This document shows, piece by piece, positions 36,996 to 58,152 of a stretch of DNA of 60,313 bases. The notes beneath the pieces are model-generated. The model ran no database searches. It had not been told where the DNA came from and saw only the letters and a list, made by a program, of their open reading frames with translations. The number at the start of each line of letters is the position of its first letter. The stretch's first letter is position 1. Origin of the DNA: an uncultured Alphaproteobacteria bacterium (GTDB taxonomy: Bacteria; Pseudomonadota; Alphaproteobacteria; HIMB59); NCBI GenBank assembly GCA_902527545.1, contig CABZPR010000007.1:1-60313 (forward strand), given 5' to 3'. The position numbers were made by a program, and so were the translations under genes.

Positions 36996-37886
36996 TTATC
37001 TTTTAAATCTTTCTTTTAAAAGATCATATAACTTTTGCGAGTCATAACTAAGATCCCTTCCAGATCTTTTTATCAAACCTATTGTTCTTGTTACGGACGG
37101 ATCAATTAAAGGTCTGTAAGATAAAGAAGAATAATCTTTAGAAATAGCCAACTTAGGAGCTAAAGTTATGCCAAGTCCTTGCTCAACCATATTCAATGCT
37201 GTTGGTATATGTCTCACCTCGTAGGCCCAATCTATATCTTCATCTTGCAGGGCAAGCGCATTTTCAATGTAAATTCTACTCCCAGAGCCTTTCCAAATTG
37301 AAATAAAGTTCCTACCTTTGATTTCAGATATTTTTATTTTTCTTTTTTTTTCTAACTTATCCCCTTTAGGAAAGACTACTACGTAATCTTCCACAAATAA
37401 ATTTTCAAAATTTATTCCAGGTTCTTGTTTGCCAGTAAAATTAATACCAAAGTCACATTCTCCCCCTAAAACACTATCAACAACATTATTGGATGACCTT
37501 TCAATAATTTGAACCTTGCATCTTGGTTCAATCTCTTTAAATTTTTTTAAAGACGAAAATAATATATTTCTTAGAGCTGAGTGAACTACTCCAATTTTAA
37601 TAATCGAGGGGAAACTGTATTTTTCGTTAAGAGTTTTTGTTGCTGTTTTAACAGCCTCTATAATTCCTCTGGCACGGTCATAAAAGTTTCTACCAGAATA
37701 AGACAATTGAACTTTTCTTGTAGTTCTGTCAAATAAAGTAGTGCCTAATTCATGTTCTAATTTCTGAATTCTTCTTGAAAGAGCAGGTTGAGATAAATTC
37801 AAATTATTTGCAGCTTTTGCAAATGAATTAGTTTCGGTTAATTCTATAAATGCTTCTATATCACCAATCTCAATATTTATGCGCAT
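36996..37886 (-). CDS. LysR-type transcriptional regulator
   Basis: A 296-aa LTTR. The N-terminal winged helix-turn-helix is clear (FIELTETNSFAKAANNLNLS, then QPALSRRIQKLEHELGTTLF, residues about 12-52), followed by a periplasmic-binding-like effector domain. It lies 24 bp downstream of glpK and probably forms the end of a glpD-glpK-lysR transcript. LTTRs usually control adjacent or divergent genes, so targets could be glpDK, acnA or the divergent aldolase operon. The effector is unknown. Confidence 0.9.
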   Translation of the reverse strand: MRINIEIGDIEAFIELTETNSFAKAANNLNLSQPALSRRIQKLEHELGTTLFDRTTRKVQLSYSGRNFYDRARGIIEAVKTATKTLNEKYSFPSIIKIGVVHSALRNILFSSLKKFKEIEPRCKVQIIERSSNNVVDSVLGGECDFGINFTGKQEPGINFENLFVEDYVVVFPKGDKLEKKRKIKISEIKGRNFISIWKGSGSRIYIENALALQDEDIDWAYEVRHIPTALNMVEQGLGITLAPKLAISKDYSSLSYRPLIDPSVTRTIGLIKRSGRDLSYDSQKLYDLLKERFKR

Positions 37887-37910
37887 ACAACATAAATATC
37901 AAAATTTTTT

Positions 37911-39401
37911 TTATTTTCTATTCTTTTTTACAATTATTTTATTAACTGCCTTTAACCAACCTTGGTAAAGATATTTTACTTCTTTTTTGTGTAACTTTGG
38001 TTTGAATAATTTTTGACTTTGCCATTTTTTAGAAATTTCTTTCGTGCTTCCAAGCATTCCACTAGATAGTCCAGCTAAATACGCGGCTCCTAATGAAGTG
38101 GTTTCTGTAATCTTAGGACGATCACACTCTGATAATAAGATATTTGAGAGAAATTGAAGAAACTGTTCATTTTTTACCATGCCACCATCGACCTTTATTT
38201 TATTGATTTTTATTCCACTGTCTTTTTCCATAGAAATAATCAAGTCTTTCGTTTGATAAGCAACACTATCTATTGCTGATTTCACAAGTTCTGAAACACC
38301 AGTATTTCTTGTCATCCCAAAAATTGCTCCCCTTGCCTCACCGTCCCAATAAGGTGCACCTAATCCTACAAATGCAGGCACAAAGTAGATTTGTTGAGAT
38401 TTGTCATTACTTTTGTATAAATCCTCGGTTTCTTCTGCACTACTAATTACTTTTAATGAATCTCGAAGCCATTGTATAGCTGCACCCGCAATAAAAATTG
38501 AACCCTCAAGAGCGTATGTAGTTTTCCCTTTGATACGGTAGGCAATTGTTGTTAACAAATTATTCTTAGATATCTTTATATTTTTTCCTATATTCATAAT
38601 CATAAAACAGCCAGTACCATATGTTGACTTTATAGAGCCTGGCTCAAAGCATGCTTGCCCTATAGTTGCTGCTTGTTGATCTCCAGCAATCCCCCCAATT
38701 TTAATTTTTGAGCCAAAAATCGTAGTGTAGCCAAATTCATCTACGCTATCTTTAACCATAGGTAAAATCGATGCTGGTATATTAAATATTTTTAATAGGC
38801 TTTTAGACCATGAATTTTTAGTTATATCATAAAGCATTGTTCTAGATGCATTAGTAGCCTCAGTATAGTGTGACCTGCCCTCAGTTAACTTCCAAAGAAT
38901 CCAAGTATCAATTGTCCCAAATAAAAGCCTATTTTCTTTTAAAAGTTTTTTAGAGGATTCTATATTGTCGATAATCCATTTTATTTTGGTTGCTGAAAAA
39001 TATGAGTCAATCACTAATCCAGTAATTTTTTGAATTTTTTTTGTATAACCTTTTTTTTGTAATTCTTTACAATAATTTACTGTTCTCCGATCTTGCCATA
39101 CTATTGCTTTGTAAACAGGTTCTCCTGTCTCCTTATCCCAAAGCACTGTCGTCTCTCTCTGATTTGTTATACCAATTGCAGATATATCTGTTGGTCTGAT
39201 GTTGGATTTTTTTATAGCATTTTTAGATGTTTTTAGGACTGTTTCAAAAATCTCTTTAGGGTCATGTTCAACGCACCCATCTTTTGGAAAATATTGTTTT
39301 AACTCTATCTGATCAAATGAAACTATTTCAAATTTATTATTGAAAACTATAGACCTAGTTGAGGTAGTCCCTTGATCAATAGAAAGAATGTATTTACTCA
39401 T
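37911..39401 (-). CDS. glpK: Glycerol kinase
   Basis: A 496-aa FGGY kinase that phosphorylates glycerol to sn-glycerol 3-phosphate. It has SIDQGTTSTRSIVF at the N terminus, QYFPKDGCVEHDPKEI, GITNQRETTVLWDKETGEPV, WQDRRTV, and the FGGY signatures FVPAFVGLGAPYWDGEARG and VDGGMVKNEQFLQFLSN. These are true GlpK hallmarks, unlike the other two FGGY kinases in the window. It lies 27 bp downstream of glpD on the minus strand. No glycerol facilitator gene is nearby. Confidence 0.94.
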   Translation of the reverse strand: MSKYILSIDQGTTSTRSIVFNNKFEIVSFDQIELKQYFPKDGCVEHDPKEIFETVLKTSKNAIKKSNIRPTDISAIGITNQRETTVLWDKETGEPVYKAIVWQDRRTVNYCKELQKKGYTKKIQKITGLVIDSYFSATKIKWIIDNIESSKKLLKENRLLFGTIDTWILWKLTEGRSHYTEATNASRTMLYDITKNSWSKSLLKIFNIPASILPMVKDSVDEFGYTTIFGSKIKIGGIAGDQQAATIGQACFEPGSIKSTYGTGCFMIMNIGKNIKISKNNLLTTIAYRIKGKTTYALEGSIFIAGAAIQWLRDSLKVISSAEETEDLYKSNDKSQQIYFVPAFVGLGAPYWDGEARGAIFGMTRNTGVSELVKSAIDSVAYQTKDLIISMEKDSGIKINKIKVDGGMVKNEQFLQFLSNILLSECDRPKITETTSLGAAYLAGLSSGMLGSTKEISKKWQSQKLFKPKLHKKEVKYLYQGWLKAVNKIIVKKNRK

Positions 39402-39428: not shown

Positions 39429-40859
39429 CTATATATATTTTTTTAAAATATTTTCTAAAATTGCCAATTTTTCATTTGGAAATTTTATCCCTAATTTAGT
39501 CCTCCTAAAGAGTATATCTTCTGGAGTTTTTGCCATTTCCTCTTGAACGAGATATTTAATTTCGAATTCATAAAGATCCTCAAAAATATGTTCACCACCA
39601 TCCATAAAACTCTGATAATATTGGTTTAAATTAATTATTTTATCTCCATATGTTTTTATTAACCTTTTTGTGAGTTTTTCAGGTATTAAAAAATTTTTAT
39701 CTATAATCTCTTTTGCGCCGGGTAAAATCTCATTTCCAGTCCAAGATTTATTAGTAATTTTAATATATTTTGAAATTTTCTTTATCGCATGTTCTGATAA
39801 TTTTCTGTAGGTAGTAAGTTTCCCACCAAAAATTGTAAGTATCGGAGCACCGTTATCATCTATCTCAAATGTATAGTCTCTTGTAATCTTCGAAGCATTT
39901 TCGTTTAAGTCTTCAACCAAGGGCCTAACACCTGAATACGTCCAAATAATATCATCTTCAGTAATTTCTTTTTTGATAAATTTATTAACTGATTTTATAA
40001 GGTAATTTTTTTCTATATCAGTTATTACAGGATTGTCGTAAGTTTTAACTTCATGATCTGTTGTTCCAATTAAAGTAAAATTATCCAGATAGGGAATTAA
40101 AAATATTATTCGTTTATCACTTAACTGTAGAATGTAAGCCTGTTCACCATCATATAGTCTCTCTGTAATAATATGACTCCCTTGCACATGGCGTATTTTC
40201 TTTTTAGATTCAATTCCAATAATATTTTTTAGTACATCTAAAACATAGGGACCTGAAGCATTTATAATAACTTTTGATTGCAATATCTCGCCATTACTTA
40301 AAAAAACTTCCCAATAATTTTTTTTTCTCACAACTTTTTGGACTTTTGAATTAGTGTAAATTTTAGCTCCTCTGCTTATGGCATCTTGAGCATTTAAGAG
40401 AACTAACCTAGCATCATCAACAAATAAGTCTGAGTATTCATAGCCAGTTAAGAAATTAGGTTTAATAGGATTTTCATTATAATCAGTACCTAAGTTTACC
40501 ACTTTTGATTTTGGAAATGATATAAAACCCCCCATCCAATCGTAGAGCATTAGTCCTAAACGTATCAACCATGTAGGGCGCAAACTTGGAACATGGGGTA
40601 AAACAAATCTTATCGGTTTGGTAATATGGGGTGCTATTTTTCTAATCACCTCACGCTCTTTTAAAGACTCTCGTACCAATCTAAATTCGTAATTTTCTAA
40701 GTATCTTATTCCACCATGTATTAATTTTGTTGACCAAGATGAAGTTTTCGAGGCTAAATCTCCTTTTTCAATTAATGTAACTTTTAAACCTCTTCCGGCC
40801 GCATCTCTTGCGATTCCTACTCCATTGATCCCACCACCAATAATTAATAAATCTTGCAA
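39429..40859 (-). CDS. glpD: Glycerol-3-phosphate dehydrogenase, FAD-dependent
   Basis: A 476-aa membrane-associated flavoenzyme that oxidises sn-glycerol 3-phosphate to DHAP and feeds the quinone pool. It has the FAD dinucleotide fold LLIIGGGINGVGIARDAAGRG, SKTSSWSTKLIHGGIRYLEN, and FGGKLTTYRKLSEHA near residue 345-360. TTG start at 40859, with AAGG upstream. It heads the leftward glpD-glpK-lysR group and is divergent from the aldolase/kinase operon at 41036. The intergenic region has an imperfect palindrome at 40936-40971. Confidence 0.93.
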   Translation of the reverse strand: MQDLLIIGGGINGVGIARDAAGRGLKVTLIEKGDLASKTSSWSTKLIHGGIRYLENYEFRLVRESLKEREVIRKIAPHITKPIRFVLPHVPSLRPTWLIRLGLMLYDWMGGFISFPKSKVVNLGTDYNENPIKPNFLTGYEYSDLFVDDARLVLLNAQDAISRGAKIYTNSKVQKVVRKKNYWEVFLSNGEILQSKVIINASGPYVLDVLKNIIGIESKKKIRHVQGSHIITERLYDGEQAYILQLSDKRIIFLIPYLDNFTLIGTTDHEVKTYDNPVITDIEKNYLIKSVNKFIKKEITEDDIIWTYSGVRPLVEDLNENASKITRDYTFEIDDNGAPILTIFGGKLTTYRKLSEHAIKKISKYIKITNKSWTGNEILPGAKEIIDKNFLIPEKLTKRLIKTYGDKIINLNQYYQSFMDGGEHIFEDLYEFEIKYLVQEEMAKTPEDILFRRTKLGIKFPNEKLAILENILKKYI

Positions 40860-40971: not shown

Positions 40972-41035
40972 TCTTTTATTAAGTAGTCATTTAAGGTTCT
41001 TGTATATTGAGCAACATGTGAATAGGATCTGTCAA

Positions 41036-41677
41036 ATGACTAAAAATGAGACAAAAATTAGAAAACAGATAATAGAAGCTTGCCTTTTAATGGAAAAAAA
41101 GGGTTTGAATCAAGGTAAAGCGGGCAACATCAGCGTTCGATGGAAAGATGGGATGCTTATAACCCCATCTGGTATTTCCTATGAGGGCATGAAACCCAAA
41201 GATATAGTTTTTGTAGACTCTAAGACTAAACCTCATGGAATATGGAAGCCCTCAAGTGAGTGGAGATTTCATTTTGATATATTAAAAGAAAGAAAAGAAT
41301 TTGATGCAGTCGTGCACAATCATCCTGCTTATGGTACAGGCATGTCTGTACTAAGAAAGGATATTAAAGCCTATCACTATATGATTGCCTTTTTAGGCGG
41401 TGACACAATTAAATGTTCTACTTTTGCAGTTCCAGGATCACAGGAATTATCAGATGCAGCATTAAAAGCTCTTAAAGGGAGGAAAGCATGTTTATTAGCA
41501 AATCATGGTACAATTACTTGTGGTAAAAATTTAGATGAAGCAATGTTTCTGACTGAAGAATTTGAAATTTTATGTAAGCAAATTACTATTGCAAAAATAA
41601 ACGGTAAACCCCAATTGGTCGAAAAAAAACATATGAAAAAAATAATTGAGGCTATAAAAATGTATGGTAAATACTAA
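41036..41677 (+). CDS. Class II aldolase, FucA/AraD-like
   Basis: A 213-aa zinc-dependent class II aldolase or epimerase. Zinc ligands are His94 and His96 (VVHNHPAYGTG) and His157 (LANHGTITCG). The acid/base is Glu75 (SSEWRFH). They sit at nearly the same numbering as in E. coli fuculose-phosphate aldolase (73, 92, 94, 155). I start at ATG 41036, with AGGA at 41024-41027; a TTG at 41000 would add 12 non-conserved residues. It would cleave a ketose 1-phosphate to DHAP and an aldehyde. The ketose is unknown. It overlaps the next aldolase gene by 14 bp. Confidence 0.88.
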   Translation: MTKNETKIRKQIIEACLLMEKKGLNQGKAGNISVRWKDGMLITPSGISYEGMKPKDIVFVDSKTKPHGIWKPSSEWRFHFDILKERKEFDAVVHNHPAYGTGMSVLRKDIKAYHYMIAFLGGDTIKCSTFAVPGSQELSDAALKALKGRKACLLANHGTITCGKNLDEAMFLTEEFEILCKQITIAKINGKPQLVEKKHMKKIIEAIKMYGKY

Positions 41678-42692
41678 TCCCTCATTTTCTCAGGAAGACT
41701 TAAAATCTTTTAAAGATATTTCTTTCAAACTTGGCTCAAATAGCCATTTAGTACAAGCAGCAGGAGGAAATACTTCAGTTAAATCTGATGGAAGAATGCT
41801 TATTAAAGCATCCGGAACTTGGTTAATTAATTCTTTAGATAAAGATATTTTTGTTGAGGTTGATTTAAATTCAATAACTGAAAAAATAAATAATGGTAAA
41901 GAAGATAATTTTATAGATGATATAATATCTAAAAATAATTTACATCCTTCATCTGAAACTTCATTTCATGCATTAATTAAGCATAAATATGTTTTACATG
42001 TCCATTCTACTACAACAATTGCAAATGCAATTTCACAAAGTAGTGAGTCTGATTTGAAAAAATATCTCGATGAAGATTTTATCTTTATTCCTTACTGTCG
42101 ACCTGGTTTTACTTTAACAATGGAAATAAAAAAACTAATTTTACCCTCAACTAAAATATTAATTCTCGAAAATCATGGATTGATAGTTGCTGGTGATGAT
42201 ATTGAGGATACCTATAAATTGCTCTTAAAAATTCATAAAAAATTAGACTTAATCAGAAATAAAAAATTAGCCTTCGATTATTTAGAGGACACCACAAATA
42301 TTGATGGTTATATGCATAAAAATGCTGATAAATATAAATTATTCTCAACACAGAATGAGAAATTATTCTCACTTTTCTCTAAATCTTTTTATCCAGATCA
42401 CGTAATTTTTTTAGGCCCTGGCATACCTACATTTTTAGAAGTGAAAGAAGCAAATGAATTTATTCAAAATCTAAAAAGAAAGAATATCAATCTCCCCCCC
42501 TATTTAATTTTAAAATATAAAGGTCTTTTTGAAAACACTTTAGCTATTCCAGCTGCAAAAGAAATGATCGACTGTTTTTTGGAAGTTCTGCTAAGAATTG
42601 ATTTATCAAAGTCTTTAAAATTTTTGTCAAATCAACAAGAGAGTGAATTATTGAATTGGGATATTGAGATATATCGTCAATCAATAAACTAA
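41664..42692 (+). CDS. Class II aldolase, RhaD-like stand-alone
   Basis: A 342-aa class II aldolase/adducin family protein. Expected metal residues are His112 and His114 (VLHVHSTTT) and His171 (LENHGLIVAG), with Glu98 (HPSSETSFH) as acid/base. AAGGNTSVKSDG and the domain layout resemble the aldolase half of the fusion protein at 56122, so the two are paralogues. The C-terminal 140 residues (YPDHVIFLGPGIPTFLEVKE) match the extension found in RhaD-type enzymes. It overlaps the FucA-like gene (14 bp) and the kinase (1 bp). Confidence 0.82.
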   Translation: MVNTNPSFSQEDLKSFKDISFKLGSNSHLVQAAGGNTSVKSDGRMLIKASGTWLINSLDKDIFVEVDLNSITEKINNGKEDNFIDDIISKNNLHPSSETSFHALIKHKYVLHVHSTTTIANAISQSSESDLKKYLDEDFIFIPYCRPGFTLTMEIKKLILPSTKILILENHGLIVAGDDIEDTYKLLLKIHKKLDLIRNKKLAFDYLEDTTNIDGYMHKNADKYKLFSTQNEKLFSLFSKSFYPDHVIFLGPGIPTFLEVKEANEFIQNLKRKNINLPPYLILKYKGLFENTLAIPAAKEMIDCFLEVLLRIDLSKSLKFLSNQQESELLNWDIEIYRQSIN

Positions 42693-43960
42693 TGTCATTT
42701 TATCTAGGAATTGACTTTGGAACGACTGGTGTCAGAACTTCTATAATTGATAAAAATAAAAAAAAATTAATTAATTTTTCAGTTTCTATTGTCGACCCAA
42801 TAAGCAAGGGGGCATTGGTATATCAAAATCCAAGTTTATGGTGGAATGCATTAATCAAAAATCTTACATATTTAAAAACTAAATTTGAATTAAACAAAAT
42901 TGAAAGATTATCAATCGATGGAACATCCGGTACAATACTTATAACCGATCATTCTGGTAACCCTTTAGATAATGCTTTAATGTATAATGATGCTTCAGCT
43001 GTAAAAGAGTCTAAGTTAGTTGAGAGTATATCTGATAACCATCCAATTGTATCCACTTCTACTAACGCATTAGTAAGGGCATTATCACTAATCAACAAAC
43101 TTAAAAAAGAAAAATATAGGATACTTCATCAAGCAGATTGGATAGCTTGTAAAATAATTGATGATTATATGTATTCAGATGAAAATAATGCTCTTAAACT
43201 AGGTTATGATTGTATAGAAAGATCTTGGCCAAAATGGTTTGATCGGTTACCTATTGAAATGAATAGCCTACCAAATATAAAAATACCAGGACAGTCTATA
43301 GGCGAATTAAGAAACACCGAACTTATTGATTTAGGTTTTAGTAACAAAACCAAGGTTATAGCAGGCACTACTGACAGCATCGCAGCATTTTTAGCGACTG
43401 GAGCTAAAAATATTGGAGAAGCAGTTTCCTCTATTGGCACAACTCTGGTAGTAAAAGCTATTTCAAATAAGCCAATTTATAATAAGGAATTTGGGATCTA
43501 CAGTCATCGTTTGGGCGAAAATTGGCTAGCTGGGGGAGCTTCCAATGTTGGAGGAAAAATACTAAAAGAACTATTTTCAGATAGAATAGAGGAATTATCA
43601 AAAGACATAGACCCAAATAATTTATTGAATTTAAATTTCTATCCTCTGGCACAAAAAGGTGAAAGATTTCCTTTTAATGACCCTAACAAATTACCAATTT
43701 TAGAACCTCGTCCTAATTCTGAGATAAAATTTTTTCAGGCTGTGCTTGAGGGTATAACTAATGTTGAAAAATTGAGCTACGAAAAGATATTTGAGATAGG
43801 TGGTAAATATCCTAAAACTATTTTCACAATAGGAGGTGGAGGAAAAAATTTAAAGTGGAATGAAATTAGAAAAAAAATACTAGGTGTGGAGCTAAATAAG
43901 CCTTTATCAAATGATGCTTCTTTTGGATCTGCTCTTATAGCGTTAGGAAATATTTTTTAA
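42692..43960 (+). CDS. FGGY-family kinase resembling plant/cyanobacterial D-ribulose kinase
   Basis: A 422-aa sugar kinase, shorter than GlpK or XylB. Motifs are GIDFGTTGVRTSIID, the unusual SIDGTSGTILITDHSGNPL followed by ALMYND, GTTDSIAAFLATGAKNIGEA, and a C-terminal FTIGGGGKNLKWNEI. The TSGT and SHRLGENWLAGGASN patterns recall the cyanobacterial/plant ribulokinase branch, which makes D-ribulose 5-phosphate. That placement is from memory of the family. It abuts the HAD gene and overlaps the aldolase by one base, so it is firmly within the operon. Confidence 0.75.
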   Translation: MSFYLGIDFGTTGVRTSIIDKNKKKLINFSVSIVDPISKGALVYQNPSLWWNALIKNLTYLKTKFELNKIERLSIDGTSGTILITDHSGNPLDNALMYNDASAVKESKLVESISDNHPIVSTSTNALVRALSLINKLKKEKYRILHQADWIACKIIDDYMYSDENNALKLGYDCIERSWPKWFDRLPIEMNSLPNIKIPGQSIGELRNTELIDLGFSNKTKVIAGTTDSIAAFLATGAKNIGEAVSSIGTTLVVKAISNKPIYNKEFGIYSHRLGENWLAGGASNVGGKILKELFSDRIEELSKDIDPNNLLNLNFYPLAQKGERFPFNDPNKLPILEPRPNSEIKFFQAVLEGITNVEKLSYEKIFEIGGKYPKTIFTIGGGGKNLKWNEIRKKILGVELNKPLSNDASFGSALIALGNIF

Positions 43961-44809
43961 ATGGTAAAAAAATTATTATCTCTTAAAGAAATTTCAGAGC
44001 ATTACGATACTTATTATTTTGATCAATGGGGGGTTGTTCATGATGGAATAAATATTTTTAATGAAGCAGAACAAGTCTTTTCATATTTACAGTCACTAAA
44101 TAAAAAAATTTATATAATTAGTAACTCAGGAAAAAAATCTTCAGACAATACTAACCGTTTGATAAAAATGGGTGCAAAAAATATTTTAAAATCTCATTTA
44201 ATTACATCAGGAGATGTATGCCTAGAATACTTAAAATCAAAAAAGAGTCCTTTTGAAAATATTGGAAATAAATATTTTGTGGTTGGAACAGATTACCCCT
44301 TATTACAAAACACAACATTTGAAAAGGCGAATTCTTTAGAAAATGCTAATTTTCTTTTATTAACCTCTACTACTGGTCTTAAAAAAACTCATTTAATTGA
44401 GGAAATTTATACAAGTGCTATAGAAATGAAGTTACCTCTAGTGTGCTCAAATCCTGATATTCTTGGCGTTTCTGGAGAAAATATTCATCCCTCAACAGGA
44501 GACCTTGCAGTTAATTACAAAAAAATGGGAGGACAAGCATTTATAATTGGTAAACCAAATATTGAAATTTTTCATTATGTTCAAGAGTTATCCAATAGTA
44601 ATAAATCAAAAACTTTGATGATAGGAGACTCTCTATTTAATGATATTGCAGGCGCAAATAGCTTTGGTATAGACTCATTATTGATTACCTCTGGAATTCA
44701 TAAAGAAGAATTTATGCAAAATATACCAACGAATGATATAATTGATAATATAAAATCAGATTTCCAAATTACTGGAAAGCCGGACTACATAATGGATAAA
44801 CTTAAATGA
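43961..44809 (+). CDS. HAD-superfamily class IIA phosphatase (TIGR01459-like)
   Basis: A 282-aa HAD hydrolase. Motif I is YYFDQWGVVHDG, matching the D.WGV.H.G form of the TIGR01459 family. Motif II is IISNSGKKSSDN, the IIA cap follows, and motif IV is MIGDSLFNDIAGANSFGID. The family is related to NagD-like sugar-phosphate phosphatases. In this operon it may remove phosphate from a dead-end or pathway sugar phosphate. It abuts the kinase gene with no gap and overlaps the SDR gene by 4 bp. Confidence 0.85.
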   Translation: MVKKLLSLKEISEHYDTYYFDQWGVVHDGINIFNEAEQVFSYLQSLNKKIYIISNSGKKSSDNTNRLIKMGAKNILKSHLITSGDVCLEYLKSKKSPFENIGNKYFVVGTDYPLLQNTTFEKANSLENANFLLLTSTTGLKKTHLIEEIYTSAIEMKLPLVCSNPDILGVSGENIHPSTGDLAVNYKKMGGQAFIIGKPNIEIFHYVQELSNSNKSKTLMIGDSLFNDIAGANSFGIDSLLITSGIHKEEFMQNIPTNDIIDNIKSDFQITGKPDYIMDKLK

Positions 44810-46589: not shown

Positions 46590-47033
46590 ATGCTCAAAAA
46601 AATTGTTATTGGTGCAGACCATTTAGGAAAAAATCTTAAAGATGAAATCAAAGAGCATCTAGAGTCTAGAGGTATTGAAGTCATGGATGTAGGGGTCTCT
46701 GATGACTCACAAGTAGATTATCCAGACGTTGGTAAAACATTAGCAAAAAAGGTACAAGATAGTGAATTTGAAAGGGGTATTCTAGTTTGTGGAACTGGTG
46801 CTGGAATGGCTATTGTCGCTAATAAATTTTCAGGTGTGAGGGCGGTTTGTGTGAACGATGCTTACACAGCAGAGAGATCTATTGCGAGCAACAACGCTCA
46901 AATTATTACCTTTGGTGCTTTAATCACAGGTACTCCAAATGCAATTATGTATACAGATATTTGGTTGAAAAATAATTTTCAATCTGAGAGATCTGGAAAA
47001 AAAGTTGATAAAATTAATCAGTTAGATAACTAG
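46590..47033 (+). CDS. RpiB/LacAB-family sugar-phosphate isomerase
   Basis: A 147-aa aldose-ketose isomerase. Active-site positions are Asp10-His11 (IGADHLGKNL), Tyr44 (SQVDYPDVG) and the acid/base Cys67 in ILVCGTGAGM. RpiB interconverts ribose and ribulose 5-phosphates. Relatives act on tetrose, allose or galactose phosphates (for example in erythritol catabolism). As the last gene of the 41036-47033 operon, it would link the ribulokinase-like product to the pentose phosphate pool. The spacer 47034-47135 has only weak hairpins. Confidence 0.88.
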   Translation: MLKKIVIGADHLGKNLKDEIKEHLESRGIEVMDVGVSDDSQVDYPDVGKTLAKKVQDSEFERGILVCGTGAGMAIVANKFSGVRAVCVNDAYTAERSIASNNAQIITFGALITGTPNAIMYTDIWLKNNFQSERSGKKVDKINQLDN

Positions 47034-49740: not shown

Positions 49741-49882
49741 AGTGAGACTATACACTTAAATTTCAAAGAGTTTATTTTAAAATACCTCTATTTTTCTATT
49801 AGAAATTCTTAATGAAGCTGAGGATTATTAGAAGAAGTCAACATAATAAAATAATATTTTGTGTATAACTATATTAAGCCTC

Positions 49883-49932: not shown

Positions 49933-51453
49933 ATGCGCGATATGTATAGAAAAATGCACCTTGCAAACATTGTAGGCAAGTACGTAAACGGTAATATGAA
50001 GAGAAGAGATTTTCTTAAAAATGCCGGTATGCTTGGCCTAGGAGCTGGTTGCTTGGGCACAATGGGAACTATGAGCAGAAAATTTATTCCTCAAGCTCAT
50101 GCTGGTTCTCATGGAATAGAATGGAGAGGGGATATGATGGATTGGTTAAAAGATGTATCATCTCCTTTCAGAGGCCAAACAGTATCTTTGGCAACTGAGT
50201 CAACTCCTCCTTCTAATGCGATAAATACAACTTTAAAACCTTTCTTTGAGGAAGTAACAGGTATTAAAGTTAACATTGAGGTTTTACCTTTAGAGCAAGT
50301 TTTACAAAAACTAACTTTAGACGTTGCCTCTGGATTAGGAACTTACGACACTTATTACCTAGATCAAAGTTGGATGGCAGCCTTTAGAGGTGATGCAGAA
50401 GATCCTCGTGAGCTTTATGCAGCAAATCCTACATTAGCTATGCCTAATTATAACTTTGACGATTTCCTAGGACCACTTGTAGATGGTATTTCCATGTACG
50501 ACGGCACTATGGTTGGTGTTCCTTATGACATTCCTGTCTTTATTATGATGTACAGAGATGATGTTTACAAAGAGCTTGGACTAAGTGTTCCAACAACATT
50601 TGATCAGTACATGAGTAATGCTCAAGTAATACAGGCAGCAAAACTTGGTCATTTAAATCCAGACGGAAGACCAATATACGGAACTAATGGTCAAATGAAA
50701 TCCGGTCACTACAGCTTAGAGTGTGACTGGACTATGTTTGCCTGGGCTTTCGGTGGTTCAATTACCAATCCTGATGGAAGTTTTGCAGGTAATGATGCAA
50801 ACGGTTTAGCAGGTATGGATTACTGGACAAAACTGAAAGAGTATATGCCTTCGGGTGTTACAAGTTGGACATGGGATGGTCAAGGACAGGATATCCTTCA
50901 AGGTGGTTCTGCTCAAACAATCTCATGGGGTGAATTCTTCCCATGGTGGGACTCTGATGAGTCAAATGTTCAAGGGAAAATGATGGCTGCAGCCTGCCCT
51001 GCTCCTGCGAGTCCTCTAAGATCAACAAGTGACTGTGGTTATGGTGAAATTCCAGGTGTTGCACACCAAGGTGGATCTTCACTAGCTGTTTCTAAATATT
51101 CAAAAAATAAAGATGCAGCTTGGTTATTTGCACAATGGGCAACTAGCTATGAAACACAAGTCTATATCACTGCACTTGGTGGTGGTACTGGTCCAACTAG
51201 ATCAGCTGTTTATGACGATGAGAGAGTTAAAGCTAATAATAGAAGCGGTAACGGTACAACTCGTCACCTAGATGTTGTTAGAGATGCTATCTTTAATGAT
51301 ATGGGGTCAGAACCAGATCTTCCTGAATGGGCTGACATGTCAAGCAACATGATACCTATTGAGCTTGGTAGGTATTTTGCTGGAGAATACGGATCAGCAA
51401 AAGATTGTTTAGACACTATTGCTAAAAACTTCAACAAAACTGTTGGGGTTTAA
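49933..51453 (+). CDS. ABC transporter extracellular solute-binding protein, TAT-exported
   Basis: A 506-aa family-1 type sugar/polyol binding protein. The start has GGAGGG upstream. A 22-residue cytoplasmic extension precedes a twin-arginine signal (RR at 24-25, MKRRDFLKNAGMLGLGAGC) with cleavage near QAHAG. The mature part shows DSWM-like aromatic ligand regions (YYLDQSWMAAF, VGVPYDIPVFIMMYRDD) and SWGEFFPWWDSDESNVQGK. It is the receptor for the permeases at 47136-49740 and the ATPase at 55046. A strong hairpin follows, which would raise its level over downstream genes. Confidence 0.92.
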   Translation: MRDMYRKMHLANIVGKYVNGNMKRRDFLKNAGMLGLGAGCLGTMGTMSRKFIPQAHAGSHGIEWRGDMMDWLKDVSSPFRGQTVSLATESTPPSNAINTTLKPFFEEVTGIKVNIEVLPLEQVLQKLTLDVASGLGTYDTYYLDQSWMAAFRGDAEDPRELYAANPTLAMPNYNFDDFLGPLVDGISMYDGTMVGVPYDIPVFIMMYRDDVYKELGLSVPTTFDQYMSNAQVIQAAKLGHLNPDGRPIYGTNGQMKSGHYSLECDWTMFAWAFGGSITNPDGSFAGNDANGLAGMDYWTKLKEYMPSGVTSWTWDGQGQDILQGGSAQTISWGEFFPWWDSDESNVQGKMMAAACPAPASPLRSTSDCGYGEIPGVAHQGGSSLAVSKYSKNKDAAWLFAQWATSYETQVYITALGGGTGPTRSAVYDDERVKANNRSGNGTTRHLDVVRDAIFNDMGSEPDLPEWADMSSNMIPIELGRYFAGEYGSAKDCLDTIAKNFNKTVGV

Positions 51454-51464
51454 TTAAAAAAATT

Positions 51465-51492: not shown

Positions 51493-51511
51493 ATGATGTG
51501 TTTGATAAAAT

Positions 51512-52234
51512 ATGAAAAAACCTTTAGCAGTTATAACTGGTGCAAGTAGTGGTATAGGTGCAGCGACTGCAAAAGCATTTTCAAAAGCAGGGTACCCTAC
51601 ATTATTGATAGCAAGAAGGCTTGATATAATGGAGTCGTTTAAATTAGAAGACTCAATGTGTAGAAAAGTAGATGTTCGAGACAGAGAGGCGCTTATAGCT
51701 GCTATACGTGAGGCTGAAAAAGAGTATGGACCAACTGACATGATTTTTAACAATGCTGGTGTGGCCAGACTTGCAGAAATTGGAACTCAAGATCCATCTG
51801 AATGGGATGAAATGATTGACGTTAACACGAAAGGCGTAATGAATGGAATTTATGCTGTGATGAGCGATATGAAAGCCCGAAAAGGTGGTACTATTGTTAA
51901 TATGAGTTCAATAGCAGGAAGAAAAATTTATGAAGACCATACCGTCTATTGTGGGACAAAATTTTTTGTTCATGCAATATCAGAGAGTATTAGAGGTTAT
52001 CTGTCACCGCATAATGTTAGAGTGATAGTAATGTCACCTGGAAATATTGAAGCAGAAGTTTTAAATGGAATTACTGACCCTAACACTTTAGAAGCTTATA
52101 AAAAAAATATCGAGAGAATTGGAGGAAGAATATCCCCAGATTATGTTGCAAAAATGATACTTTTTGCATATGAAATGCCACAAAATGTAATCATGCAAGA
52201 AGTGGTAGTGACACCAACAAAACAAGATTACTAA
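51512..52234 (+). CDS. Short-chain dehydrogenase/reductase
   Basis: A 240-aa classical SDR. It has TGASSGIGAATAKAF at the N terminus, NNAG (MIFNNAGVARL), catalytic Ser in NMSSIAGRK, and the Tyr-Lys pair in YCGTKFFVHAISES. An ARRLD motif after strand 2 favours NADP. It lies 58 bp after the binding-protein gene and abuts the kinase. It probably oxidises the imported polyol or sugar before or after phosphorylation. Confidence 0.9.
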   Translation: MKKPLAVITGASSGIGAATAKAFSKAGYPTLLIARRLDIMESFKLEDSMCRKVDVRDREALIAAIREAEKEYGPTDMIFNNAGVARLAEIGTQDPSEWDEMIDVNTKGVMNGIYAVMSDMKARKGGTIVNMSSIAGRKIYEDHTVYCGTKFFVHAISESIRGYLSPHNVRVIVMSPGNIEAEVLNGITDPNTLEAYKKNIERIGGRISPDYVAKMILFAYEMPQNVIMQEVVVTPTKQDY

Positions 52235-53755
52235 ATGACACGTCTAGTTATTGGCGTCGACAGTTCTACACAATCAACAAAAGCAATTGCATGGGATGAT
52301 AAAGGTAATGCGATCGCTGAGGGCAGATGTGATATTCCTTTAAACAACCCAAGCCTTGAAAAATTTGAACAGGATGTCGAGGATTGGTGGAAAGCTTTTT
52401 GCGTATCATGCAGCGAATTAGCTAAAAAAATAGATATAACTAAAGTTGAAGGACTAGCCATATCCAATCAACGTGAAACTTTAGCAAAATTAGACAAGTC
52501 AGGGAAAGCAGTTTACCCAGCCACAGTTTGGATGGACAAAAGATCTTTAGAGGAAGTAGAAGAGTTGAATTCTATAATGGGTGAAGGTCAAATTCACAAA
52601 ATTACAGGACGTCCAAAAGATCCATGTCCATGTCTTTATAGAGTTTATTGGCTTAAGAAAAATGAAAAAAAAATATTTGATAAAGTTGCTTGTTTTGCAG
52701 ATGTTCAAGCTTTTTTAGTTCATAGATTATCAGGGGAATTTAACACCGGTTGGATAAGTTCGGATCCTCATGGAATGTTTGATGTTGTCAATAAATGTTG
52801 GTCTAAAGATATATTGGAGCATTTGAATATTGATGAATCAAGACTTCCTAAATCGTTCAAACCAGGAACCTGCATAGGCAAAGTTTCAAAGGATGCATCT
52901 CACCAAACTGGTTTAAAAGAAGGTTTAAGTATATTTGCTGCAGGGGGTGATGGGCAACTCGCTGGTCTTGGCACAAATTGTACAAAATCAGATAGAGCAT
53001 ATATCAATCTCGGAACAGCTGTCGTTTCTGGAGTTTGGTCAAAGGACTATAAAATTTCAAAAAATTGGAGAACAGAAATTGCTGCACACGGAGAAGGTTT
53101 TATAATGGAAAATGTATTATTGTCAGGAGCTTTATTAGTCAACTGGTATGTCGACCAATTTATACATGGTGATAGGAAAGATCCAAATTTTTTTAAAAAC
53201 TTAGAAGAACAAATTAATAAAATACCAATTGGAAGTGATGGATTGATTTTACAACCATACACTGGTGGAGTAATGGATCCTTATTGGGATTCATATGCAA
53301 GAGGGATTATAGTTGGTTTAAGTATAAGTCACACCCCATATCATGTTTATAGATCGATATTAGAAGGATTGACCCTAGACTCTGTTTTTAGAACTCAAAA
53401 TATCGAAAAAGAAACAGGTATAAATGTAAAAGAATATCTAGCGATAGGAGGAGGGGCGAATAGTCCTGCTTGGGTGCAAATGTTGGCTGATGCCTCTGGA
53501 AAGAATGTACTTATCGCAGACACTGTAGAAGCATCTTCATTGGGCGCTGGTATGATAGCTGCTTATGGCGCAGGTTGGTATAGCAGCATAAAAGAGTCCG
53601 CAGAAAATATGTCAGGAAAAACTCGACTTATCGAACCTAACCTAGATAACAAATCAAAATATCAAGATTTAATTAATATTTACCAAAATGTTTATGACTC
53701 AAATAAATCAATTAATAAATCTCTTGTTCAATTTACTGAAAAATATAAATCATGA
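52235..53755 (+). CDS. FGGY-family carbohydrate kinase, xylulokinase-like
   Basis: A 506-aa sugar kinase. Motifs are GVDSSTQSTKAIAWDDKG, GLAISNQRETLAKLDKSGK, WMDKRSLEEVEE, GGDGQLAGLGTNC, and the C-terminal IGGGANSPAWVQMLADASGK. It is closer to xylulokinase-type enzymes than to GlpK; it lacks the GlpK segment QYFP..GWVEHD. It would phosphorylate a pentulose or polyol delivered by the ABC importer. It abuts the SDR (0 bp) and overlaps the metal dehydrogenase (4 bp). Confidence 0.87.
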   Translation: MTRLVIGVDSSTQSTKAIAWDDKGNAIAEGRCDIPLNNPSLEKFEQDVEDWWKAFCVSCSELAKKIDITKVEGLAISNQRETLAKLDKSGKAVYPATVWMDKRSLEEVEELNSIMGEGQIHKITGRPKDPCPCLYRVYWLKKNEKKIFDKVACFADVQAFLVHRLSGEFNTGWISSDPHGMFDVVNKCWSKDILEHLNIDESRLPKSFKPGTCIGKVSKDASHQTGLKEGLSIFAAGGDGQLAGLGTNCTKSDRAYINLGTAVVSGVWSKDYKISKNWRTEIAAHGEGFIMENVLLSGALLVNWYVDQFIHGDRKDPNFFKNLEEQINKIPIGSDGLILQPYTGGVMDPYWDSYARGIIVGLSISHTPYHVYRSILEGLTLDSVFRTQNIEKETGINVKEYLAIGGGANSPAWVQMLADASGKNVLIADTVEASSLGAGMIAAYGAGWYSSIKESAENMSGKTRLIEPNLDNKSKYQDLINIYQNVYDSNKSINKSLVQFTEKYKS

Positions 53756-55053
53756 CAGATTATAATGGCGTAATAAAAGATTTAATTGCAGGCAAATGGG
53801 TTAACCCTGAAGATAAAAGGAAATACGGCATCCCAATTAAAAAAATTGAAATAGATAAAAGCTTAGACGGTAAAGAGTCATTATTGATTTCTCAATTACA
53901 TCCAAACCAAAATCTTCTTATTGTAAGTGATCAATTTACACACAAAGCCCTTGGTTCAAGAATTTATAAAAATCTTCAAGGTAAAGTAAAAGCAGATGAG
54001 TATATATGGGAGAGCCCATCTTCAAGTATAGAGGGTGTAGAATTTTTAAGAAAAAAAATAAATGATTACGATGGAGTTATTGCAGTAGGGTCAGGAACAG
54101 TCAGTGATAGTATAAAGTATGCAACTTTTCTTGAAAAAAAATCTTACTCTGTCTTTGCAACCACTCCTATGAATGCTTACACAACAGGCACAGCCTCTAT
54201 ATCTTTTGAAGGGATCAAAAAATCATTGGTTGCGCATTATGCACAAGGCGTTTTCTTTGATTTAGAGGTTCTCAGTATGTGTCCCAAAAGACTAACTGCT
54301 GCTGCTTTTGCAGATGTGATTTGTCGAACAACTGCACAGGTTGATTGGTTGATGTCACATAAAATTTTGAAGACTGATTATCAAACAGCACCGTATTCTC
54401 TTTTAGCTTTATATGAGAAAGATATGATTGAAAGCGCTTCATTAATTGCAAAAGGAGATATAGAAGCTCTTGCTTTACTTACACGTATCTCTGCAATAAT
54501 GGGATTGGGTACTTCATTTACACAGACAACTCATGTGGGGAGTATGGGTGAACATGGCATTTCTCATTACATAGATATGTTTGCAAAAGACAACCATCCC
54601 GGAACGTCTCATGGAGAACAAGTGGGAATTGCAACTATTAGTATTTCAAAAATTCAAAATTCTATTTTAAATAATAATACTCCACCAATAATAAAACCAA
54701 CTCAAATACCTGAGCAAGAAATCATTCAAAAACTTGGTCATCAAATGTTAGACACAATTCATGATGCAATGAAGACAAAAATATTTGATGAAAAGAGAGC
54801 AGAGATGATAAATAATTTTTTTCAAAAGAACTGGCTCGAATTTGTTCAACCACTAAGAGAGAAAATGTTACACTACGATATTATTTGGAATTCTATGGGA
54901 GAGTGCGGTGCATTAAGAACTCCCGAAGACGCTAAACTTGATAGTAATTTTTACAAAGATGCTCTAAGATATGCTAGGTTCATAAGAGATCGATACACTA
55001 TTCTTGATTTAGCCGGGGATAGCAATCAACTAGATGGATTAATAAATGTCTGA
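53752..55053 (+). CDS. Iron-containing alcohol dehydrogenase family, AraM/G1PDH-like
   Basis: A 433-aa NAD(P)-dependent dehydrogenase of the sn-glycerol-1-phosphate dehydrogenase (EgsA/AraM) group. It has the cofactor loop AVGSGTVSDSIKY (residues 111-123), TTPMNAYTTGTAS, and metal ligands Asp188 (AFADVI), His268/His272 (GSMGEHGISHYID) and His287 (TSHGEQVGI). AraM reduces DHAP to glycerol 1-phosphate. Between a kinase and an ABC ATPase, this copy may instead oxidise another polyol phosphate. An N-terminal stretch of about 40 residues (PEDKRKYGIPIKKIEID) is typical of the group. Confidence 0.85.
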   Translation: MTDYNGVIKDLIAGKWVNPEDKRKYGIPIKKIEIDKSLDGKESLLISQLHPNQNLLIVSDQFTHKALGSRIYKNLQGKVKADEYIWESPSSSIEGVEFLRKKINDYDGVIAVGSGTVSDSIKYATFLEKKSYSVFATTPMNAYTTGTASISFEGIKKSLVAHYAQGVFFDLEVLSMCPKRLTAAAFADVICRTTAQVDWLMSHKILKTDYQTAPYSLLALYEKDMIESASLIAKGDIEALALLTRISAIMGLGTSFTQTTHVGSMGEHGISHYIDMFAKDNHPGTSHGEQVGIATISISKIQNSILNNNTPPIIKPTQIPEQEIIQKLGHQMLDTIHDAMKTKIFDEKRAEMINNFFQKNWLEFVQPLREKMLHYDIIWNSMGECGALRTPEDAKLDSNFYKDALRYARFIRDRYTILDLAGDSNQLDGLINV

Positions 55054-56104
55054 AGTAGAATATATAAATATAAAAAAAAACTTTGGCTCTGTAGAGGTAC
55101 TAAAAGACATAAATCTAAATATTGGTAATCAAAAATTTGTTGTTTTACTTGGCCCTTCAGGGTGTGGAAAGACTACTTTGCTGAGAATGACCGCTGGATT
55201 AGAAACTATATCTAGTGGGGAAATTTCAATAGGTGGAGACATTATTAATAACATCCACCCAAGAGATAGAGATATAGCAATGGTTTTTCAAAACTACGCT
55301 TTATACCCTCAAATGAATGTCTTTGATAATATTGCATTCAGTTTACAGATCAGAAAAATGGCTAGCCAAGAGATAAAGGAAAAAGTTGAGTGGGCGGCTT
55401 CTGTATTAAATTTAACAGATTTTTTAAACAGAACACCAAAAGAGCTGTCAGGTGGACAAAGGCAAAGGGTAGCTATGGGCAGAGCATTAGTAAGAGATCC
55501 AAAGGTATTTTTGTTCGATGAGCCTTTGTCAAATCTTGATGCAAAATTAAGAGCTCATATGAGATTGGAAATTAGAAAATTACATAATCAACAAAATGCT
55601 ACCACTATTTATGTAACTCATGATCAAATTGAGGCTATGACTATGGCTGACGAGATAGTGATTATGAACAATGGTATTATTGAACAAATAGCAACTCCAA
55701 ATGAAATTTATGAAAAACCAAATAATTTATTTGTTGCCGATTTTATTGGCACTCCTGCAATTAATCTTCTTGAGGGAGTTGTAACAGATAAGAGTAGTAT
55801 TAAATTAAAGTCACAGGACCTACCTCACTCAAAAAAAAATGTATCAAATAATCAAAATGTAGTTTATGGCATAAGACCTACTGACGTGAGCATAGATCCA
55901 AGCTCAAATATAAAAGCAGAGGTAGTTTTAGTTGAAACAACTGGTTCAGAGACTCATATAATAGCAATGTTAGATGATAATGAATTTAGAGTAGTTCAAA
56001 ATGGTGGACGTACCACAATTAAAAATGGTGATGTCATTCCTCTTTCAATCAATATTGAAAAAGCACATTTATTTGATCATTCATCAACCAAAAGAATAGA
56101 TTAA
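55046..56104 (+). CDS. ABC transporter ATP-binding protein, MalK/UgpC type
   Basis: A 352-aa ATPase that energises the sugar importer. It has Walker A GPSGCGKTT (36-44), Q-loop MVFQNYALYPQMNVFDN, signature LSGGQRQRVAMGRALVRDP, Walker B FLFDEPLSNLDAKL and the H-loop YVTHDQIEA. The C-terminal MalK-type OB domain is present (YGIRPTDVSI). It overlaps the AraM-like gene by 8 bp. With the two permease types and the binding protein it completes the transporter from two divergent operons. Confidence 0.95.
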   Translation: MSEVEYINIKKNFGSVEVLKDINLNIGNQKFVVLLGPSGCGKTTLLRMTAGLETISSGEISIGGDIINNIHPRDRDIAMVFQNYALYPQMNVFDNIAFSLQIRKMASQEIKEKVEWAASVLNLTDFLNRTPKELSGGQRQRVAMGRALVRDPKVFLFDEPLSNLDAKLRAHMRLEIRKLHNQQNATTIYVTHDQIEAMTMADEIVIMNNGIIEQIATPNEIYEKPNNLFVADFIGTPAINLLEGVVTDKSSIKLKSQDLPHSKKNVSNNQNVVYGIRPTDVSIDPSSNIKAEVVLVETTGSETHIIAMLDDNEFRVVQNGGRTTIKNGDVIPLSINIEKAHLFDHSSTKRID

Positions 56105-56121
56105 TTTATTTAACTAGTTAG

Positions 56122-58152
56122 ATGAAAAGTAAATATAACGAAAACGAAGCAAAATCTTACATCAAAAAATATGCAAAAAGAGGTGTTCCTAAAGACTTAG
56201 CACTTCGCATTTATACAACACAACTTTTGGGAAATGATCCAACCGTTGTTCTTCACGGAGGAGGAAACACATCTGTGAAATCATCATTAGATACCCTTCT
56301 AGGTAAAAATGAGGAAATTATTTATGTAAAAGGTAGTGGTAAAGATATGGGTAATATTGAGGAGGATGGTTTCCCGGCTTTAGAAATGAAAAATCTTCTT
56401 AGTATGAGAAAATTCATTGAGCTAGATGATTTTCAAATGGTTAATTATCAGCGTAAATATATGCTTGATACTTCTTTCCCAAATGCTTCTGTAGAAACTC
56501 TTTTACACGCGTTCCTCCCTCACAAATTTGTTGATCACTCCCACTCTAATGCAATTCTCTCACTTATTGATCAACCTAATCCAGAAAAAATTTGTAAACA
56601 TGTATTTGGTGATGAAATGGGTATCGTTCCATACATTATGCCTGGTTTTGAATTAGCAAAAAAAGCTTCTGAGGTATTTGATAAAAATCCAAATGTAAAA
56701 GGATTAATTCTTTTAAATCATGGAATTTTCACTTTTGCAAATAATGCAAAAGAAAGTTACGAAAGAATGATTAAATATATAACAAAGGCTGAAAAAGAAC
56801 TCACAAAAAAATCTAAGCGTATTAGGGTTAGCAAATACTTTGAAAAAAAAATTAGCATTTCAGAAGTTTCAAATCTGATAAGGCAACAAATAGCCAACAA
56901 ACGTGGGGATGATTTTGAAAGAAAGGTTGTGCATTTTAATAAACCGAAATTCTTTGACGAATTATTTTCACATCCTAATTTAAAAAAATTTACAAATGAA
57001 GGACCTGTGACACCTGATCATGTTATAAGGATTAAATCAAAACCATTAATAATCGATTTATCAAAAGAAAAATCTAATAATCTAGAAAAAATTATTATTC
57101 AATCCATTCAAAATTTTAAAGAAATTTATAAGAAATATTTTAAACGTAATCATAAATATAACTCTACCGCCTCAATGCTAGACCCCTATCCAAGATTAAT
57201 TTTAGTAAAAGGCATTGGTATTTTTTCCACAGGGCCGACATTTAAAGATGCCAAAATAGCAATGGATGTAGGTTTAAATTCTCTCTCAGTTATTTTACAA
57301 GCTGCAAAGTTTGGAAATTTTAAGTCAATACCTGAAAAAGAAATTTTTAGAATGGAATATTGGCCCCTTGAGCTAGCAAAAATTAAAAATTCATCTCAAA
57401 AACTTAAAGGACAGGTAGCTGTTGTTACAGGCGGCCTTGGAGGTATCGGTTATGTTACAGCACAAAAATTTAAAGCAGAAGGAGCAGATGTAATAATTAT
57501 AGATATTACCAGCTCCAAAGATATCAAACAGGATATAACGGGTATGAGTTATATAAAATGTGATATTACAAATGAAAACAAAATTAGGGATGTATTTAAA
57601 CAAATATCCTCTATTTATGGCGGTGTGGACATCCTCATTTCTAATGCAGGGTTTGCTACTGTTGAGTCTTTGGAAAAACTCACAAAGCAACAATTTGATA
57701 AAAGTTTTGATTTGAATCTTTTTGCACATCACTATTTCGTTAAACACGGAGTTGAAATAATGAAAAGGCAAAAAACCCGTGGAGTAGTTTTGTTTAATAT
57801 TTCTAAACAAGCTGTAAATCCAGGAAAAAATTATGCTGCTTATGGTCTTACAAAAGCTGCCCTATTATTTTTAATGAAACAATATGTAACAGAGTACAGC
57901 GATTACGGAATTCGTTTTAATGGAGTGAATGCTGATAGAATAAGAAGTGGTTTAATGACTGATGATATGATTACAAAGAGATCTAAAGCAAGAGGTTTAA
58001 CTATTAAGCAATATATGTCTGGAAACTTATTAAAACAGGAAGTTAAAGCAATCGATGTAGCCGATGCTTTTTATCATTTGGCTTTGTCTTACAAGTCAAC
58101 TGCAAGTGTAATAACTGTAGATGGTGGAAATTTAGAGTCTTCGTTTAGGTAA
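56122..58152 (+). CDS. Bifunctional class II aldolase/short-chain dehydrogenase (RhaD-SDR fusion)
   Basis: A 676-aa two-domain enzyme. The N-terminal aldolase (residues about 1-410) has GGGNTSVKS (46-54), Glu125, His139/His141 (DHSHSN) and His200 (LNHGIFT). The C-terminal SDR (about 428-676) has the cofactor loop TGGLGGIGY (436-444), SNAGFA and the YGLTK pair. Characterised relatives such as RhaEW cleave L-rhamnulose 1-phosphate and oxidise lactaldehyde. Related fusions are common in marine bacteria with unknown substrates. It would produce DHAP plus an acid from a phosphorylated sugar. Last gene of the operon, 17 bp after the ATPase. Confidence 0.9.
   Translation: MKSKYNENEAKSYIKKYAKRGVPKDLALRIYTTQLLGNDPTVVLHGGGNTSVKSSLDTLLGKNEEIIYVKGSGKDMGNIEEDGFPALEMKNLLSMRKFIELDDFQMVNYQRKYMLDTSFPNASVETLLHAFLPHKFVDHSHSNAILSLIDQPNPEKICKHVFGDEMGIVPYIMPGFELAKKASEVFDKNPNVKGLILLNHGIFTFANNAKESYERMIKYITKAEKELTKKSKRIRVSKYFEKKISISEVSNLIRQQIANKRGDDFERKVVHFNKPKFFDELFSHPNLKKFTNEGPVTPDHVIRIKSKPLIIDLSKEKSNNLEKIIIQSIQNFKEIYKKYFKRNHKYNSTASMLDPYPRLILVKGIGIFSTGPTFKDAKIAMDVGLNSLSVILQAAKFGNFKSIPEKEIFRMEYWPLELAKIKNSSQKLKGQVAVVTGGLGGIGYVTAQKFKAEGADVIIIDITSSKDIKQDITGMSYIKCDITNENKIRDVFKQISSIYGGVDILISNAGFATVESLEKLTKQQFDKSFDLNLFAHHYFVKHGVEIMKRQKTRGVVLFNISKQAVNPGKNYAAYGLTKAALLFLMKQYVTEYSDYGIRFNGVNADRIRSGLMTDDMITKRSKARGLTIKQYMSGNLLKQEVKAIDVADAFYHLALSYKSTASVITVDGGNLESSFR

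Follow-up and report, generated by a model that had tools for sequence, protein, structure and literature searches.

The stretch of DNA analysed here, called the window, comprises 60,313 nucleotides of contig CABZPR010000007.1 (GenBank assembly GCA_902527545.1) from an uncultured alphaproteobacterium of the HIMB59 lineage, whose genome (1.30 Mb in 36 contigs) is 86.75% complete. Its positions 36996–58152 hold 19 open reading frames (ORFs; Table 1), including an island of about 17 kb with two operons, A (41000–47033) and B (47136–58152), predicted to encode the import and catabolism of sugar alcohols. Families were assigned from the ORFs with Pfam and NCBIfam models and curated score cut-offs. 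The assignments bear out the inventory given by an earlier, sequence-only reading of this DNA: three FGGY kinases (GlpK and two others), five dehydrogenases (GlpD, two short-chain dehydrogenases/reductases (SDRs), a GpsA-like enzyme and an enzyme like AraM/sn-glycerol-1-phosphate dehydrogenase (G1PDH)), three class II aldolases, one of them fused to an SDR, an RpiB-like isomerase and a HAD-IIA protein. As that reading also described, there are overlaps and a divergent arrangement: the genes overlap or nearly abut, and the permeases and the solute-binding protein (SBP) are divergent. Its complete ATP-binding cassette (ABC) importer is present with SBP, permeases and a UgpC-type ATPase, with the correction that there are three permease genes, two of which are of the MalG type. 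A1, A3, B2, A6 and B3 fall below the curated function cut-offs; the scores therefore identify the family and not the substrate. Starting A1 at the alternative ATG at 41036 would shorten it to 213 aa, the form listed for several relatives.

Table 1. Genes at positions 36996–58152 of the window.
Gene	Position	Strand	Basis of assignment
LysR-type regulator	36996..37886	-	Pfam HTH_1 + LysR_substrate; core flank
GlpK glycerol kinase	37911..39401	-	TIGR01311 681 bits, cut-off 590; core flank
GlpD glycerol-3-phosphate dehydrogenase	39429..40859	-	PRK12266 617 bits, cut-off 360; flank
A1, FucA1-like class II aldolase	41000..41677	+	PRK08087 223 bits, below cut-off 264; 42% to S. medicae FucA1 position
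A2, lone class II aldolase, LalA-like	41664..42692	+	Aldolase_II; 33% to S. medicae lalA-position protein
A3, FGGY kinase, RbtB-like, SePSK (D-ribulose kinase) type	42692..43960	+	PDB 5htn, E 1.9e-86; 41% to S. medicae rbtB position
A4, HAD-IIA protein, RbtC-like	43961..44809	+	TIGR01459 142 bits, cut-off 104; 30% to S. medicae rbtC position
A5, SDR oxidoreductase	44806..45576	+	adh_short; conserved among carriers compared
A6, GpsA-like NAD(P) glycerol-3-phosphate dehydrogenase	45576..46583	+	PRK00094 143 bits, below cut-off 257
A7, RpiB-type isomerase	46590..47033	+	PRK05571 160 bits, cut-off 135
permC, extra MalG-type permease	47136..47969	-	BPD_transp_1; 48% to permB
permB, MalG-type permease	47976..48842	-	BPD_transp_1
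permA, MalF-type permease	48847..49755	-	BPD_transp_1
SBP, solute-binding protein	49933..51453	+	
B1, SDR oxidoreductase	51512..52234	+	adh_short
B2, FGGY kinase of separate clade	52235..53755	+	XylB 312 bits, below cut-off 380
B3, AraM/G1PDH-like, iron-alcohol-dehydrogenase fold	53752..55053	+	Fe-ADH_2 (PF13685); PRK00843 129 bits, below cut-off 413
B4, UgpC-type ABC ATPase	55046..56104	+	PRK11650 470 bits, cut-off 432
B5, class II aldolase fused to SDR	56122..58152	+	NF006192 797 bits, cut-off 639

The limits of the island follow from six relatives hand-picked for lacking the operons (G016, G019, G025, G040, G044 and G046). In all six the flanks are joined: LysR-GlpK-(GlpD)-(canonical GpsA) is followed by the three genes that lie to the right of 58155 in the window, and aconitase adjoins LysR at this empty site. 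GlpD is missing in G019 and the canonical GpsA in G016. The insert therefore spans approximately 41000–58152. LysR and GlpK, which the sequence-only reading had counted among the parts of the system, are kept in all six relatives, and GlpD in five. In G002 the island sits on another contig with GlpD alongside, and the old site holds aconitase, LysR and GpsA with neither GlpK nor GlpD (G002:C22:1-38000; G002:C20:26000-42000; L075, L076, L195). Because of the retention at the empty site and the arrangement in G002, LysR and GlpK are assigned to the core genome and not to the island, with which GlpD may travel. In the window GlpD adjoins operon A on the opposite strand; in the comparison with EryB, a GlpD-family enzyme, it is site-bound in five of the six island-free relatives and island-linked in G002.

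The spread of the operons was assessed in 52 genomes of the genus, including the source genome; many are incomplete (50–99%), so absences among them are soft. An orthologue of B3 is present in 19 of the 52 and an orthologue of A2 (57–100% identity) in 17. Both occur together in 15, on one contig in 14 of these and on two contigs in G039. The Fisher value for this association (p ~1e-7), which like the other one given below ignores relatedness, describes the pattern and is no independent test because the genomes are related. Among the ten genomes at least 90% complete, four carry both genes and six carry neither. Gene order within A and B is identical in G001, G029, G004, G026, G002, G010 and G020. 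A DeoR-type regulator, missing in the window, lies between A7 and permC in seven relatives (G001, G002, G007, G010, L094, L099 and L102) and is about 31–32% identical to that of the Sinorhizobium locus described below. The co-occurrence of the operons, proposed earlier as a check on a joint system, is thus observed within the genus and, as described below, A and B genes are also linked outside it.

The order A1-A2-A3-A4 is that of fucA1-(eryB)-lalA-rbtB-rbtC in Sinorhizobium medicae and S. meliloti, whose loci were found by searching those genomes with A3; the names LalA, RbtB and RbtC are given here by gene order against PMC3599248. A2, A3 and A4 are 32–33, 41 and 29–30% identical to their counterparts, and the lalA-rbtB-rbtC suboperon is matched. 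In four relatives (G002, G004, G010 and G026), the roughly 9.5 kb upstream of A1 encode transport proteins (an SBP, two permeases, two ATPases) together with an AraM-like protein, an FGGY kinase and a member of the 2-hydroxyacid-dehydrogenase family. Together with G007, where frames are broken, five relatives keep this importer-EryA-RbtA half upstream of A, and the C6 kinase of G004 groups with S. medicae EryA (support 100/100). In S. meliloti 4H41 a single run combines the genes of the upstream half (minus the AraM-like one), FucA, a GlpD-family enzyme, relatives of A2, A3 and A4, an EryC-position gene, a DeoR-type regulator, TpiB and RpiB; the same run is seen in S. medicae, where the compared stretch begins at the permeases. 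The S. medicae RpiB passes the rhizobial erythrulose-4-phosphate isomerase model (250 bits, cut-off 240) and its TpiB the triose-phosphate isomerase model (419 bits, cut-off 293); the locus therefore fits the published erythritol/adonitol/L-arabitol locus (PMC3599248). As given in that study, the locus comprises mptABCDE, eryA, rbtA, fucA1, eryB, lalA-rbtB-rbtC, eryC and eryR-tpiB-rpiB. There, mptABCDE and eryA serve erythritol as well as adonitol and L-arabitol, EryA taking pentitols too, and lalA-rbtABC act on pentitols and not on erythritol. On sequence grounds, operon A belongs to a type of locus already known, being the lower half of a polyol operon of the Sinorhizobium type.

The upper half was not found in the window, which contains no importer with two ATPases (mptABCDE), no EryA and no RbtA; in the kinase tree, several reference branches of which are long, EryA branches apart from both B2 and A3, the search for EryA being confined to the window. 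EryC and TpiB are not among the 19 ORFs of 36996–58152, to which their search was confined. The four carriers at least 90% complete likewise keep A and B and lack AraM2, the marker of the upstream half. As a separate observation, nearly all upstream-half, A and B genes are matched in G007 (L081/L082, G007:C2:124000-160000), many of them with frames broken by decay or sequencing error.

The best PDB matches of A1 are L-fuculose-phosphate aldolases. In A2, E98, H112, H114 and H171 are invariant in 20/20 proteins, and this glutamate and the three histidines are presumably the class II aldolase set. A3 and the kinase in the rbtB position of S. medicae fall into a single clade (support 100/99). Its closest solved relative is SePSK of Synechococcus (PDB 5htn), which phosphorylates D-ribulose and whose tested residues include D8, T11 and D221 (PMC4880283). 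These correspond to D8, T11 and D228 of A3 and are invariant in 14/14 A3-type proteins. The accessible text on SePSK mentions no polyol operon, and the D-ribulose assignment of A3 is a prediction by homology. A7 is a second RpiB copy in the source genome (the other is at G000:C4) and scores below the erythrulose-4-phosphate isomerase model (130 bits, cut-off 240). RpiA (TIGR00021) was found in none of the 52 genus genomes; the RpiB family (PF02502) is present in 41, with two copies in 13, namely 12 with the island and G025 without it. Independently of the island, one island-free relative (L083, G040:C1:328000-347000) has a galactose-type cluster (GalK, GalT, GH4, SBP, epimerase) next to which a LalA-like aldolase and an FGGY protein are encoded; in L084-L086 this aldolase recurs in a series of ORFs of similar lengths.

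Operon B encodes a CUT1-type ABC importer with permA, permB, permC, the SBP and the UgpC-type ATPase. PermC and PermB are both of the MalG type, and permC is 57–97% conserved among relatives, against 92–100% for permA and permB. For the predicted model of the SBP, the best solved match is PDB 5iai, probably a ribitol complex, ranked above the SQ-glycerol protein. B1 has relatives of 68–72% identity beside B2/B3 in six loci outside the genus. B2 forms its own clade in the kinase tree (100/100), with R80, E81, W99 and D239 invariant in 24/24 proteins. Compared with the five signature residues of GlpK, it keeps R83, E84 and D245, plus W103, and has Y135 and F270 changed, so the full GlpK set is not present. 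B3 has the Fe-ADH_2 domain of the AraM/G1PDH family but falls far below the G1PDH cut-off. Its D188, H268 and H287 are invariant in 10/10 proteins, and we take them to be the Asp/His/His metal ligands of that family. Two features of the DNA itself may be mentioned here. GC content is higher in permB, permA, SBP and B1 (0.36–0.41) than in the measured flanking genes (0.27–0.35), and a 13-pair inverted repeat with a 4-base loop at 51464-51493, between the SBP gene and B1, is a likely stem-loop after the SBP message. A promoter and terminator scan of the DNA gave counts not above those of shuffled sequences (63 vs 83.8 and 7 vs 7.8).

Relatives of B3 outside the genus were collected by a scan of GTDB species genomes, and the counts given below refer to the best 80 of 213 matches (18 from the genus and 62 from elsewhere). 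Genes at these loci were labelled by best hit above 60 bits, and the counts are lower bounds because several loci end at contig ends. The 62 non-genus loci contain a B2-like kinase in 54 cases (53 at 35% identity or more), an SBP in 47, a GpsA-like gene in 34, HAD-IIB in 29, an SDR in 28, FucA in 21, A3 in 14, A4 in 13, A2 in 11, and RpiB, GlpD and aldolase-SDR in 10 each. B-type relatives occur in rhizobia, Pelagibius, Granulosicoccaceae and Desulfobacterales. A relative of A3 or A7 is present in 20 of the 62 loci, and the 14 loci with A3 include 11 with A2 and 12 with A4. Since Pelagibius, Taklimakanibacter and several others join A1, A3, A4, A7 or GpsA to B2-B3, linkage between genes of the two operons extends beyond the genus.

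From these results we suggest, with about an even chance of being right, that the island allows the cell to take up and degrade one or more C5 sugar alcohols, or the corresponding ketoses, most probably of the ribitol, D-arabitol or L-arabitol kind; the substrate and the order of steps are inferred. The CUT1-type importer of operon B would take up a pentitol, which B2 may phosphorylate at its end; within the window, an importer and a first kinase are supplied by operon B alone. B3, with the AraM hand, and A6, with the GpsA hand, perhaps together with GlpD, would then oxidize C2 of the polyol-1-phosphates, so that C2-epimeric pentitols would converge on one ketose-1-phosphate. By one route, the aldolases may split this compound into dihydroxyacetone phosphate (DHAP) and a short aldehyde, which the SDR part of B5 may oxidize. 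By a second, the ketose-1-phosphate would be dephosphorylated to D-ribulose, for which A4 is the only, doubtful, candidate in the island; A3 would phosphorylate D-ribulose to ribulose-5-phosphate, and A7 would isomerize the latter. The earlier idea of polyol or ketose uptake and catabolism that could yield DHAP and pentose phosphate agrees with the operons lying side by side in relatives and with the Pelagibius run described below.

Several lines of evidence support pentitol use. The order of operon A matches a locus that, according to PMC3599248, serves erythritol, adonitol and L-arabitol; the closest solved relative of A3 is a D-ribulose kinase whose tested residues are kept; the probable ribitol complex 5iai is the best solved match of the SBP model; and B2 retains part of the GlpK signature with Y135 and F270 changed. 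Further support comes from the A3/A7 relatives at B3 loci outside the genus, the DeoR-type regulator between A and B, and the nearly complete carriers that keep both operons without AraM2. Four observations weigh on the other side. HAD phosphatases usually carry DxD. In A4 and 12 relatives (13/13 aligned), DQ[W/F/Y]GV replaces this motif, the second Asp being missing, which makes the phosphatase step doubtful. No PF07479 protein besides A6 was found in the source genome (87% complete), and the same holds for 15 of the 17 genus genomes that carry A6, which for this reason may do ordinary GpsA duty; a canonical GpsA was found in 21 of the 35 genus genomes without A6 and none in the other 14 (Fisher p 0.0011). 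In addition, fucA1 is dispensable in S. meliloti, as stated in PMC3599248, and in S. meliloti 4H41 the B-type cluster and the ery/rbt locus lie on different contigs, an arrangement equally compatible with one pathway and with two.

The island might indeed hold two separate pathways, B using its own substrate via B1, B2, B3 and B5, and A using another one supplied by a transporter elsewhere. Besides the separation in 4H41, this rather unlikely arrangement is favoured by the presence of A3 in just one of the 18 non-genus loci with a Rhizobium-type kinase, by annotated rhizobial stretches without lalA-rbtB-rbtC and by the own importer and kinase of operon A in five relatives. However, in the four carriers at least 90% complete A is present and AraM2 missing, none of the importer half is seen in the stretches compared from G001 and G029, the DeoR-type regulator stands between the operons in seven relatives, and Pelagibius, Taklimakanibacter and others join A3, A4, A7 or GpsA to B2-B3.

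A tetritol or hexitol as the substrate instead of a pentitol is unlikely. The Sinorhizobium locus serves erythritol too (PMC3599248), sorbitol and mannitol are predicted to be usable by an isolate of the clade (PMC10308909), and no assays of B-type enzymes were found, but the resemblance of A3 to a D-ribulose kinase and the failure of A7 against the erythrulose-4-phosphate isomerase model speak for a C5 compound. A plain erythritol pathway was set aside on the same A7 scores and the absence of the core erythritol genes EryC and TpiB from the island. It is distinctly unlikely that the island is a glycerol-phosphate or glyceryl-glycoside system, with B3 as a true sn-glycerol-1-phosphate dehydrogenase and A6 as a true GpsA both feeding DHAP: the island has no glycoside hydrolase, A3, A4, A7 and three aldolases would be left unexplained, B3 reaches 129 bits against the G1PDH cut-off of 413, and 5iai ranks above the SQ-glycerol protein for the SBP. 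Ordinary L-fucose or L-rhamnose use, suggested by the likeness of A1 to FucA, the membership of B5 in an aldolase/SDR family that includes RhaD fusions and a rhamnose ABC transporter predicted in the clade (PMC10308909), is highly improbable and was set aside, as neither FucI nor RhaA isomerase is among the 19 ORFs searched and B2 and A3 both stand apart from E. coli FucK and RhaB in the tree (long branches).

Returning to pentitol use, the sequence-only reading had regarded the whole system as undescribed. This is contradicted in part because the fucA-lalA-rbtB-rbtC core of operon A lies in the characterised Sinorhizobium polyol locus (PMC3599248). The term holds at most for operon B, for which no paper testing it, or an AraM-FGGY polyol system, was found among the open-licence papers listed. 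A tentative and rather doubtful extension is that operon B represents an undescribed pentitol route, in which B2 would be a polyol kinase of a new clade, B3 and A6 of opposite hand would lead to one ketose-1-phosphate, several pentitols would enter a streamlined ocean bacterium through one importer and A6 would displace the canonical GpsA of lipid synthesis.

AEGEAN-169 bacteria can account for as many as 6% of the cells in surface water of the South Pacific gyre (PMC11366302), and their sugar transport is reported to be richer than that of SAR11 (PMC10308909). The portions compared of the literature on the HIMB59/AEGEAN-169 clade, to which the source genome probably belongs, do not describe the island, and no report of pentitol use in this clade was found among the open-licence papers listed. 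If the proposal is true, part of the AEGEAN-169 clade uses pentitols as carbon sources. It would also give a functional context to the B2/AraM-like pair of Alphaproteobacteria, Granulosicoccaceae and Desulfobacterales, which in the annotated records compared is labelled merely 'FGGY-family carbohydrate kinase' with 'sn-glycerol-1-phosphate dehydrogenase' or 'iron-containing alcohol dehydrogenase'.

Among the known systems, the Sinorhizobium locus shares with operon A the order of FucA, LalA-like, RbtB-like, RbtC-like and RpiB genes, and with the relatives G002, G004, G010 and G026 also the two-ATPase importer, the EryA-like kinase and a 345-aa-type dehydrogenase upstream. The window differs in lacking the importer of that locus, EryA, RbtA, EryC and TpiB. 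It has in addition an SDR and a GpsA-like enzyme, its RpiB falls outside the erythrulose-phosphate type, and operon A is adjoined by operon B. The latter resembles a rhizobial AraM-type cluster on plasmid records of R. leguminosarum (CP090116), S. meliloti (CP090106) and A. salinitolerans (NZ_CP109970), in which the SBP is 57–59% and the AraM-like protein 36–38% identical. Permeases, SDR, FGGY kinase, ATPase and aldolase-SDR are common to both, and a GpsA-like gene is annotated in two of the three records. The cluster differs in adding HAD-IIB; two of the three records have an annotated GlpD, two a sugar-binding regulator, and the stretches compared contain no lalA-rbtB-rbtC. In Pelagibius litoralis DSM 21314 (L115/L182), the lone aldolase, HAD, SDR and aldolase-SDR are unmatched in the stretch compared, and GpsA is closer to that of Rhizobium than to A6. 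Its likeness lies in the joining of both operons, with permA-permB-SBP-B2-B3-UgpC-GpsA-RpiB-A3 forming a single run.

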